A stretch of DNA of 64,000 bases, from the NCBI GenBank assembly GCA_902573465.1, contig CACGJX010000002.1:124001-188000 (forward strand). The letters are read 5' to 3'. Source of the stretch: an uncultured Pelagibacteraceae bacterium. Lineage in GTDB: Bacteria > Pseudomonadota > Alphaproteobacteria > Pelagibacterales > Pelagibacteraceae. How positions within the stretch are numbered: the stretch's first letter is position 1; each line of letters opens with the position of its first letter. This document shows, piece by piece, positions 16,966 to 44,447 of this stretch. The position numbers and the translations under genes are program-made. The notes under the pieces were generated by a model. It did not search any database. It saw only the letters and a program-made list of their open reading frames with translations, and had not been told where the DNA came from.

Positions 16966-17055
16966 GGAGAGGTGGCCGAGTGGTTGAAGGCGCACGCTTG
17001 GAAAGCGTGTAAAGGGGAAACTCTTTCATGGGTTCGAATCCCATTCTCTCCGCCA
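16966..17055 (+). tRNA. tRNA-Ser(GGA)
   Basis: A 90-nt class II tRNA. The acceptor GGAGAGG pairs with TCTCTCC, with discriminator G and encoded CCA (17053-17055). The anticodon loop TTGGAAA gives anticodon GGA, reading UCC and UCU. The long variable arm is present. D- and T-loops are canonical (GG in the D-loop, TTCGAAT in the T-loop), unlike the other three tRNAs in the window. A weak inverted repeat (AAATAAG at 17058-17064, CTTATTT at 17080-17086) followed by a T-rich stretch may end its transcript. Confidence 0.97.
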
Positions 17056-38078: not shown

Positions 38079-38154
38079 TGGTGCCCCTTGCCCGACTTGC
38101 ACGGACGGCTTTTTCCTTACCATGGAAATACTCTACTACCTGAGTTAAAGGGGC
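38079..38154 (-). tRNA. tRNA-Thr(GGT) with A18/G55
   Basis: A 76-nt cloverleaf with encoded CCA (38081-38079). Acceptor GCCCCTT pairs with AAGGGGC; anticodon stem TTTCC/GGAAA; loop ATGGTAA gives anticodon GGT, reading ACC and ACU. T-stem GTCCG/CGGGC has one wobble pair. The D-loop AGGTAGTA places A at position 18 and G at 19; the T-loop TGCAAGT has G at position 55 where U (pseudouridine) is normal. All stems pair well, so it looks functional. Confidence 0.96.
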
Positions 38155-42342: not shown

Positions 42343-42417
42343 GCCTCGGTAGCTCAGGAGTAGAGCAGAGCCCTGAAAAGGCTTGTGTCGGAGGTGCGAA
42401 TCCTTCCCGAGGCACCA
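42343..42417 (+). tRNA. tRNA-Phe(GAA) with A18/G55
   Basis: A 75-nt cloverleaf with encoded CCA (42415-42417). Acceptor GCCTCGG/CCGAGGC; D-stem GCTC/GAGC; anticodon stem GAGCC/GGCTT; loop CTGAAAA gives GAA, reading UUC and UUU. The T-stem GGAGG/CCTTC has one wobble pair. The 7-nt D-loop AGGAGTA places A at 18 with G19 kept; the T-loop TGCGAAT has G55. All stems pair, so it looks functional. It lies 6 bp after infA, probably in the same transcript. Confidence 0.97.
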
Positions 42418-42492: not shown

Positions 42493-42705
42493 ATGAGTAC
42501 AATTCAAGGAAAAGTTAAATGGTTTAATGGTAAAAAAGGGTATGGTTTTATAGAAAGAGACGATAAAGAAAAAGATGCCTTTGTTCATGCTAGCGCGGTA
42601 AAAGCTGCAGGAATGAGATTTCTAAATGAGGGAGATAAATTAGAATTTACATTAGAGGATGGTCCAAAAGGCCCTTCAGCGGTAAATTTAAAAAAATTGG
42701 ATTAA
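42493..42705 (+). CDS. csp: Cold-shock domain protein
   Basis: A 70-residue CspA-type RNA/DNA chaperone. RNP1 is KGYGFIE and RNP2 is DAFVHAS. A purine-rich AAAGGACG lies 7-10 bp before the ATG and is one of the clearest ribosome-binding sites in the window. A strong intrinsic terminator follows (42720-42762), suggesting a single-gene, highly expressed transcript. Confidence 0.96.
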
Positions 42706-42971: not shown

Positions 42972-43045
42972 GCCTTGATGGTGAAATAGTATCACGTCGG
43001 TTTGTGGATCCGAAGTCGTAGGAGCGTAACCTACTCAAGGTACCA
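42972..43045 (+). tRNA. tRNA-His(GTG), atypical
   Basis: A 74-nt gene with encoded CCA (43043-43045). Acceptor GCCTTGA/TCAAGGT with a G1-U72 wobble; discriminator A73; the base before position 1 is T, so the usual G-1 is not encoded. D-stem GTGA/TCAC with loop AATAGTA (A18, G19). Anticodon stem TCGGT/TCCGA has a T-T apposition next to loop TTGTGGA (anticodon GTG). T-stem GTAGG/CCTAC is perfect but the loop is AGCGTAA: A54, G55, C56, G57, T58, with 54 and 58 swapped relative to the norm. The hisS ATG begins 4 nt after CCA. Confidence 0.93.
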
Positions 43046-43049
43046 AAAA

Positions 43050-44447
43050 ATGAATAAAAAAAATAAATTAATTCCTGGACTACCCTCAGGTTTTGAAGAT
43101 AGATGGAATAAAAAATTACTTCTCAAAAAAAGACTATTAAGGGTTATTGAGAAAAATTTTATTAAATATGGATTTGATCCATTGGAAACACCATCATTTG
43201 AAATTAGTGAAAATATAGGCTCTTTTCTTGCAGAGGATGAGAGTAATCCTATGTCCGATGTATTCATATTTGATGATGGTGAAAAGAATATTACTTTAAG
43301 ATATGATTTATCAAGTCCACTTGCTAGATTTGTTGCGCAGAATAATCAAGAGCTTCCTTCAATATATAAAAGGTATGCAATTCAAAATGTATTCAGAAAT
43401 GAAAAATCTGGAAATGCTAGGTACAGGGAATTTACTCAAGCAGATTGTGATATAGTCGGAAATGTTAATTCGGCACAAGCTAATGCCGAGTTGTGTAATT
43501 TGATCTCAAATACATTGATAGATTGTGGTTTAAAAAATGATCAGTTTACTGTCAATGTCAGTAATAGAAAAATCGTTCAAGGTTTAATTGAAGATTTAAA
43601 AATTGAAAAAGATAAACAAATTAAAGTAATGAGAGCTATAGACAAACTCGATAAACCTGGGTTTGGTTTAAAGGGTGTTGAAGAATTATTAAAAAAAGAA
43701 AGAAAAGATAAAAGTGGAGCTATAACAAAAGGAGCAAACCTAAGTGATGATCAAGTTTCTAAAATCTTAAATTTTTTAAAGATTAAAGATTTAAAGGAAC
43801 TTAAAGAAAATTTTAAAAATCCTGTTACCCAAGAGGGCATTAAAGAATTAGAGGAATTATTTGAGGTTTTAAAATTTGGAAATTATTCTGATCAAGTAAA
43901 AACTAATTTTACGATAGTTAGAGGTCTAGATTATTACGACGGGTTTTGTGTTGAGACCAATCTGAATTTTAAAGCAAAAAATATTAAAGGCAAGGAAGTT
44001 GATATTGGAAGTATCTGCTCAGGTGGACAGTATAATAAATTAATTTCAAGATTTAAGGGTGTAGATATTCCAGGGACAGGTGTAAGTATTGGTGTTGATA
44101 GATTGCTATTTGCAATGATGCAATTAAATCAAATAGAAGTTGATACACAAAATCCAGTTATTGTTTGTGTAATGGACGAAAAATATTTAAAAAATTATTA
44201 CGAAATTTTAGATAATTTAAGAAAAAATAATATCAATTCTGAAATATTTTTAGATAGTAAAAAAAACCTAGGTAAGCAACTTACTTATGCTAACAAAAGA
44301 GAATGTCCAGTTGCAGTTATCTGTGGTGAAAATGAATTTAAAGATAATAAAATAACATTAAAAAATCTACTTGGGGCTAAAGGGGAGAATAACCAAATTA
44401 CATTTCCAAAAGAAAATTTAATAAATGAAATCAAAAAATTTATCTAA
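43050..44447 (+). CDS. hisS: Histidyl-tRNA synthetase (divergent alphaproteobacterial type)
   Basis: Charges tRNA-His. From the ATG at 43050 it has 465 residues; a GTG further upstream lies inside the tRNA and is rejected. Class II motifs: GFDPLETPSFE, LRYDLSSPLARFVAQ, YKRYAIQNVFRNE, REFTQADCDIVG (motif 2 region), IVRGLDYYDGFCVE, and GTGVSIGVDRLLFAM (motif 3). The start (PGLPSGFEDR rather than PRGTRD) resembles the divergent HisRS that in some alphaproteobacteria accompanies tRNA-His lacking G-1. It overlaps hisZ by 23 bp. The only AAGG near its start is inside the tRNA-His acceptor strand (43037-43040). Confidence 0.95.
   Translation: MNKKNKLIPGLPSGFEDRWNKKLLLKKRLLRVIEKNFIKYGFDPLETPSFEISENIGSFLAEDESNPMSDVFIFDDGEKNITLRYDLSSPLARFVAQNNQELPSIYKRYAIQNVFRNEKSGNARYREFTQADCDIVGNVNSAQANAELCNLISNTLIDCGLKNDQFTVNVSNRKIVQGLIEDLKIEKDKQIKVMRAIDKLDKPGFGLKGVEELLKKERKDKSGAITKGANLSDDQVSKILNFLKIKDLKELKENFKNPVTQEGIKELEELFEVLKFGNYSDQVKTNFTIVRGLDYYDGFCVETNLNFKAKNIKGKEVDIGSICSGGQYNKLISRFKGVDIPGTGVSIGVDRLLFAMMQLNQIEVDTQNPVIVCVMDEKYLKNYYEILDNLRKNNINSEIFLDSKKNLGKQLTYANKRECPVAVICGENEFKDNKITLKNLLGAKGENNQITFPKENLINEIKKFI

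Follow-up and report, generated by a model that had tools for sequence, protein, structure and literature searches.

Matched A18/G55 elbows in place of G18/U55 in several tRNA genes of SAR11 bacteria

The contact between G18 of the D-loop and pseudouridine 55 of the T-loop is nearly universal at the elbow of tRNAs, and pseudouridine 55 is normally made by TruB. Three of the four tRNA genes found in a 64-kb stretch of DNA from an uncultured Pelagibacteraceae bacterium (the window, meaning the whole of this stretch) have A18 and G55 at these positions, which raises the question of whether the two partners were replaced together and, if so, how. An earlier note on this DNA had reported the swap, with G19-C56 retained, in tRNA-Phe, tRNA-Thr and tRNA-His, together with a canonical tRNA-Ser; all of this, coordinates included, was found to be correct. 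The genes concerned and their neighbours are the following:

16966..17055, + strand, tRNA-Ser(GGA), with a canonical G18/T55 elbow, the contrast within the window
38079..38154, - strand, tRNA-Thr(GGT), CCA encoded, A18 at 38137 and G55 at 38100
42343..42417, + strand, tRNA-Phe(GAA), CCA encoded, A18 at 42359 and G55 at 42396
42493..42705, + strand, gene of a cold-shock (Csp-like) protein, between tRNA-Phe and tRNA-His
42972..43045, + strand, tRNA-His(GTG), CCA encoded, A18 at 42988 and G55 at 43024
43050..44447, + strand, hisS, histidine--tRNA ligase, starting 4 bases past the CCA of tRNA-His

The tRNA-His gene lies immediately 5' of the gene of its cognate ligase, and a hisZ-like gene is found 3' of hisS in the window. 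When hisS was used as the query to collect 80 SAR11 loci, a tRNA-His gene with its CCA at most 20 bases from a start codon was present in all of them (80/80).

In tRNA-Phe (D-loop AGGAGTA, T-loop TGCGAAT), G19 is at 42360 and C56 at 42397, and both G19/C56 and T54/A58 are retained, as they are in tRNA-Thr(GGT) (D-loop AGGTAGTA, T-loop TGCAAGT). tRNA-His (D-loop AATAGTA, T-loop AGCGTAA) also retains G19/C56, with A54 (43023) and T58 (43027) replacing T54/A58, a change absent from the earlier note. Parsing by structure of the whole genome, which is 88.6% complete, provided 29 tRNAs, 25 with G18/T55 and four with A18/G55, so that the three cases noted earlier stand for the window and become four for the genome. 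The fourth, Val-GAC, is located outside the window; its D- and T-loops are the same as those of tRNA-His (AATAGTA and AGCGTAA), and it thus also has A54/T58. All four swapped genes possess G19/C56, and CCA is encoded in 29/29 tRNA genes. A single gene each was found for Phe and His in this 88.6% complete genome, while Thr and Val each have a second gene of different anticodon.

The four swapped genes have stems of 7-4-5-5 bp and 7-base anticodon and T loops, with typical U8, purine 57 and G53-C61, and the RF00005 model finds all of them above its cut-off; a single unpaired position is present in the anticodon stem of tRNA-His. They share with the canonical elongator tRNA of RF00005 the cloverleaf, U8, G19-C56, purine 57, G53-C61 and CCA, and differ from it by A18/G55 instead of G18/U55 and, in His and Val-GAC, by A54/T58 instead of T54/A58. 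An alternative alignment restoring G18/U55, which the earlier note had considered, was not found for these genes: no register restores U55, because the T-loops are set by the five paired positions of the T-stem, and base 18 is A, because choosing another base as 18 costs G19.

Concerning gene finding, ARAGORN overlooked the tRNA-His of the window and Rfam with fast filters its tRNA-Thr, which scored 53 bits in the genome search. A custom finder was relied on, which requires the stems, U33 and CCA, and ignores the letters of the D- and T-loops save for a small A14/A21 weight. It recovered 29/29 genes of this genome and exactly four in the window, and misses tRNAs without CCA or U33. For the 18/55 test, the D-loop interior was scored for GG vs. 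AG only and crossed with base 55, position 18 never being assigned by eye.

In nine SAR11 genomes, 254 tRNAs were obtained after removal of one AT-rich false match in the flank of locus L017 (255 before): 244 are G18/T55, ten are A18/G55 and none is mixed. By motif, 242 are GG-only/T55, ten AG-only/G55 and two T55 with both motifs; the latter, an Arg and a Ser gene with GG and AG in the D-loop, were read as G18 from their Arg and Ser relatives. Three of the 257 Rfam matches in these genomes were missed by the custom finder, all of them T55 by hand: a Val-GAC and a cut Thr-GGT, both G18/T55, plus a T55 fragment scoring 27.5 bits. The ten swapped tRNAs are the Phe, His, Thr-GGT and Val-GAC of the genome of the window, the His of G009, the Phe of G039, G043 and G094, the Thr-GGT of G006 and the Tyr of G037. 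No A18/G55 tRNA was found in G014 and G023, two genomes read whole.

The 80 hisS loci, which are the best 80 of 320 relatives and therefore skewed to close kin with shared alleles, hold 225 tRNAs: 126 A18/G55, 95 G18/T55, none mixed and four others. As for sequence diversity, these amount to 46 distinct tRNA sequences, ten of them swapped, 34 canonical and two with a swap at 19-56. The swapped form is found in 72/79 Phe, 53/80 His and 1/66 Thr-GGT, and the canonical one in 7/79 Phe and 27/80 His, with G18/T55 in 65/66 Thr-GGT; 14/80 loci with no Thr-GGT in the stretch, and 1/80 with no Phe, were left out. The four others, all Thr-GGT (L095, L098, L103 and L109), were read as matched swaps at 19-56, with G18/T55 retained and U19-A56 (three) or A19-U56 (one). 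On the whole, position 18 matches position 55 in 475/475 SAR11 tRNAs with C56 (254 + 221, two sets overlapping in lineage).

The replacement of this tertiary pair is thus coordinated and recurrent, since no mixed pairs occur and since it recurs, including in the Tyr of another genus. The earlier note had argued for a coordinated replacement rather than error, and the absence of single-change 18/55 tRNAs among 479 SAR11 tRNAs (254 from the nine genomes and 225 at the 80 loci) bears this out. It had also envisaged other SAR11 genomes with G18-U55 in the same isotypes; these do exist, yet as alternative alleles that are always matched, and the swap is polymorphic within SAR11. That it should be an artefact, i.e. 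sequencing or assembly error, pseudogenes or misnumbering, is scarcely credible: the gene missed by each of the two common finders could speak for it, but the same alleles are found in dozens of independent assemblies, the stems are intact, the CCA is genomic, Phe and His are sole genes, and both sites changed in match. A pseudogene or an error was rejected on account of these identical alleles across many assemblies. In 36 A18/G55 tRNAs, 98.1% of the stem cells are paired, with two-sided changes at 21/21 pairs, a statistic that is partly built in, as the rows come from a finder requiring stems.

The affected isotypes are Phe, His, Thr-GGT, Val-GAC and Tyr, all with G34 anticodons. At L030 and 28 more of the 80 loci, the T-loop of Thr-GGT is GTCAGTA, with G54/G58 replacing T54/A58; a near-identical Thr gene is present on a contig of the viral catalogue, L539. 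Outside the order, the Thr-GGT of five loci (L499, L501, L503, L507 and L510) has G18 with C55 and the T-loop TCCGATT, possibly a further case of matched bases in this isotype. A covariance model trained on A18/G55 tRNAs, applied to 398 genomes of the phylum with the best 12 candidates per genome, yielded no A18/G55 tRNA besides the Phe of the window, and its 17 other loci are G18 with T55 (12) or C55 (5); with the best 12 candidates per genome it failed to list the known His of G009, and it is therefore no measure of absence. When the model was checked on 63 loci, two left-out Phe ranked first, but near kin of theirs had been used for training, and the left-out Tyr of G037 scored only 40.8 bits, under most canonical tRNAs.

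As to how the swap arose, the sequences suggest two routes. The first would be substitution in native genes, for which the Tyr of G037 is the clearest elbow-only case: its D- and T-loops (AGCAGTCAA and TGCGAAT) differ from those of the Tyr of G009 (AGCGGTCAA and TTCGAAT) at 18 and 55 only. The His of G009 (loops AGTTAGTTA and TGCAACT) has the acceptor stem of the His of G014, G037 and G006, and differs also at 57 and 59; the His of L108 is akin to the L095 type, with additional changes. For Phe, the anticodon arm GAGCC/GGCTT and the variable loop GTGTC are common to the canonical genes of G009 and G014. The second route would be the exchange of whole tRNA alleles. The His of L050 and that of the window are 65% alike between flanks that are 94% and 93% alike, quite different tRNA genes thus occupying one site inside similar flanks. 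On the hisS tree, the minimum number of class changes is 12 for His, 5 for Phe and 2 for Thr, counts that may be inflated by recombination.

The enzymes that modify the elbow were then considered. The earlier note had proposed that the swap removes U55 as a TruB target, a point made moot by the lack of any TruB. The look-up of truB and trmH that it had advised showed truB to be absent from the infB-rbfA-truB-rpsO-pnp operon of this genome. TruB (TIGR00431) was found in 0/23 genomes of the genus and 0/5 of two sister genera, vs. 7/7 in three other genera of the family and 7/8 in the other family, whose one TruB-less genome is 79% complete. The 23 genomes of the genus combine nine, several of them incomplete, with 14 that are 97-100% complete; several are just 60-79% complete and ten reach 99-100%. 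In 7/7 TruB-less genomes checked, including that of the window, rbfA is directly followed by rpsO, while truB sits between these two genes in G009 and G014. The TruB-less genera group together in a single clade (starred, 95/94) of a 16-genome protein tree, so that one loss is enough; six forks of this tree are open, and it comes with long-branch warnings.

For the other enzymes, a profile search of 16 SAR11 genomes found no TrmFO over the cut-off (0/16), the main match per genome covering about 110 positions within a frame of 622-640 aa, which we take to be MnmG. The TrmA family (PF05958) has matches in 2/16 genomes and over the cut-off in 1/16, where only 54 of 357 positions are covered. SpoU-family proteins are present in 16/16 genomes; the three of the genome of the window best match TrmJ-like, RlmB and TrmL models, all below the curated cut-offs; their TrmH scores are 22 to 50 bits, where the cut-off is 227, so that TrmH is called absent by best match in this genome only. 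Since TruB, TrmA/TrmFO and TrmH were not found, positions 18, 54 and 55 of its elbow probably carry no modification.

A link between the swap and the loss of TruB is plausible. Of the genomes read whole, the four without TruB all have a Phe with A18/G55, and the four with TruB in which a Phe gene was found have the canonical form; the counterpoint is given by the 80 loci, where 7/79 Phe are canonical though the genus is without TruB. Swapped tRNAs also occur, one each, in TruB-bearing genomes (His of G009, Thr-GGT of G006 and Tyr of G037), and the TruB-less G039, G043 and G094 have a single swapped tRNA each. Loss of truB is thus not required, because truB-bearing SAR11 genomes also have A18/G55, and a strict dependence on it was rejected.

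Taken as a whole, the explanation that we consider likely is a compensatory replacement of G18-U55 by A18-G55, with G19-C56 kept, tolerated after the loss of elbow enzymes. tRNAs with an intact cloverleaf would have exchanged the D-loop/T-loop pair G18-U55 as a pair for A18-G55, a half-change apparently not being tolerated, and lineages would move between matched pairs. Native genes would have acquired the swap by substitution on several occasions, and it would also have spread through exchange of whole alleles. In Pelagibacter, the loss of the elbow enzymes, proposed as the reason why the swap is tolerated, would have freed G18, U54 and U55 from their role as enzyme substrates, and A18-G55 may be tolerated, perhaps even favoured, where the elbow is unmodified. 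The covariation of 18 and 55 across the sequences compared gives good support to structural compensation, and the lack of intermediates could partly reflect rapid second steps. A18 presumably touches G55, the swapped genes are presumably expressed and used, and enzyme loss may well have released the constraint on 18/55.

Relaxed constraint could also have acted alone, with a neutral drift of the elbow in streamlined genomes devoid of modifying enzymes and a functionless A18-G55. The failure to find TruB, TrmA/TrmFO and TrmH in this genome agrees with such drift, as does the variation of 54-58 (A-T and G-G) at the 80 loci; but a contact still under selection is suggested by the agreement between 18 and 55 and between 19 and 56, and plain drift does not predict a change confined to few isotypes, all G34, that recurs across genera. 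Drift alone seems to us rather unlikely.

The swapped elbow is also found in viruses. A scan of viral contigs for G55 T-arms gave 16 stretches, in which the share of G55 is uninformative on frequency, and a matched T55 scan gave at least 120 matches, with 80 loci retained. Among the 706 distinct viral tRNAs identified by the custom finder at the loci listed by these two scans, 605 are matched (509 GG-only/T55 and 96 AG-only/G55), one is GG-only/G55 (the Tyr of L146, a counterpoint to compensation) and none is AG-only/T55 with C56. Both motifs are present in 70 T55 and seven G55 tRNAs, the G55 total being 109, and the remainder have neither motif, C55 (one) or a base other than C at 56; the latter mostly fit A-U, U-A or C-G at 19-56. 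In the T55-seeded set, G55 was found in 26/577 tRNAs and 8/68 tRNA-bearing loci, among the matches listed.

Some viral arrays, read with the custom finder or ARAGORN, are entirely G55: L147 (19/19), L152 (16/16) and part of L141 (21/21). L146 has 19/20 and L145 27/29, the exceptions in the latter being two Met tRNAs with T55; L141 and L145 represent the same array, and some loops listed by ARAGORN only were read through the motif GTGCRA. A wholly swapped L145 was rejected: the custom finder gives 18/18 G55, to which ARAGORN adds the two T55 Met tRNAs. L145 is a phage, with terminase and portal genes, and a gene for the RNA ligase RtcB (L145:58-1440) is located immediately before its tRNA array.

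A third scan for G55 T-arms identified 21 CAT-anticodon G55 tRNAs and 92 T55 tRNAs at 25 loci (L514-L538). In 21/25 of these loci there is a CAT-anticodon G55 tRNA, mostly with A18, and the other tRNAs found are T55; 13 of the CAT tRNAs have a C1/A72 mismatch, a trait of initiator tRNAs. The 18-mer of the Phe T-arm occurs in the viral catalogue within CAT-anticodon tRNAs.

A phage origin or a role in defence would have viral A18-G55 arrays evading, perhaps, nucleases or enzymes that read the elbow, and SAR11 acquiring such genes by recombination. Besides the arrays, their RtcB-bearing phage and the 96 AG-only/G55 tRNAs, it can draw on T-loop subtypes common to hosts and viruses and on the divergent His alleles between similar flanks. 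The catalogue contig L539 (49% GC) has a Thr-GGT that is 70/71 identical to the chromosomal one of L108, a Lake Baikal SAR11, but this shared tRNA is G18/T55 and unswapped, it may have moved in either direction, and among the eight proteins of L539 the sole virion-related match is a Clp-like protease. Of the 13 loci with G55 in the first viral set, which are partial, just one has RtcB, a gene also found in L309, where there is no G55 tRNA. No exact match to the His of the window was found in the viral catalogue, and a search of 50,697 phage records gave no match to either His or Val. The phage matches to Phe and Thr are just 72-80% alike among the matches listed, including those to Thr in four records of Listeria phages (78%), and the Phe relatives fetched from phages (L228 and L229) have canonical elbows. 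A simple derivation of the window alleles from known phages was rejected on the basis of the missing His and Val matches and of these canonical Phe relatives. The Tyr of G037 also resembles a native-gene substitution rather than an import. The phage link is suggestive and phages may have been involved as a cause, but a phage origin of the swap is rather doubtful.

A wider scenario, in which Pelagibacter and its sister genera dropped the modified elbow, had essential tRNAs rewritten with matched elbows, partly via exchange with viruses, and retain diverse SAR11 alleles through conflict, viral A18-G55 being a mark of self against nucleases or enzymes reading the host G18-U55, is in our opinion quite improbable.

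The compensatory swap is a substituted tertiary pair, i.e. a known type of tRNA departure. Eukaryotic tRNA-Ala and initiator tRNA possess unusual A54/A58 and R15/A48 pairs (PMC7566577) and have in common with SAR11 the joint, isotype-specific replacement of a pair in the elbow region; their changes are however at 54-58 and 15-48, and the available part of that paper mentions none at 18-55. tRNA-Pyl and some mitochondrial tRNAs are described, in the portion of the source at hand, as lacking the contacts of G18/G19 with psi55/C56 (PMC7609411); the departure from G18/U55 is shared, with motifs missing or another contact used there, whereas in SAR11 G19-C56 stays and 18 and 55 change in step. For phage tRNAs, mutations of the anticodon loop have been proposed, in the accessible text, to evade host tRNases (PMC10264068); these tRNAs likewise differ from those of the host at sites possibly read by proteins, in the anticodon loop and not in the elbow, and the terms elbow, D-loop and T-loop are absent from that text.

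A study of 255 tRNA genes in eight SAR11 strains (PMC3937112) contains, in its accessible part, none of the terms G18, A18, G55, U55, T-loop or tertiary, and the swap is not described in the available parts of PMC6337575 or PMC11555353. No description of A18/G55 elbows, of the loss of TruB in Pelagibacter or of elbow swaps in phages was recognised in the open-access literature, subscription papers being mostly outside this search; as far as that literature shows, the SAR11 swap is undescribed.

A paired switch repeated in a very abundant ocean bacterium is nature's own experiment on the requirements of the elbow, and lends the contacts 18-55 and 19-56 support from evolution. Because truB was cleanly lost, the role of pseudouridine 55 can be put to the test, and the swapped viral arrays suggest that the elbow may tell self from host in tRNA warfare. 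The tRNA sets of SAR11 and phages may also be under-annotated, because each of two widely used finders overlooked one of the three swapped genes of the window, and because of an example in the Caulobacter phage CcrColossus. There, an A18/G55 Phe-GAA tRNA-like gene (L364:13820-13891), with one T-stem position unpaired, is unannotated and was missed by ARAGORN.
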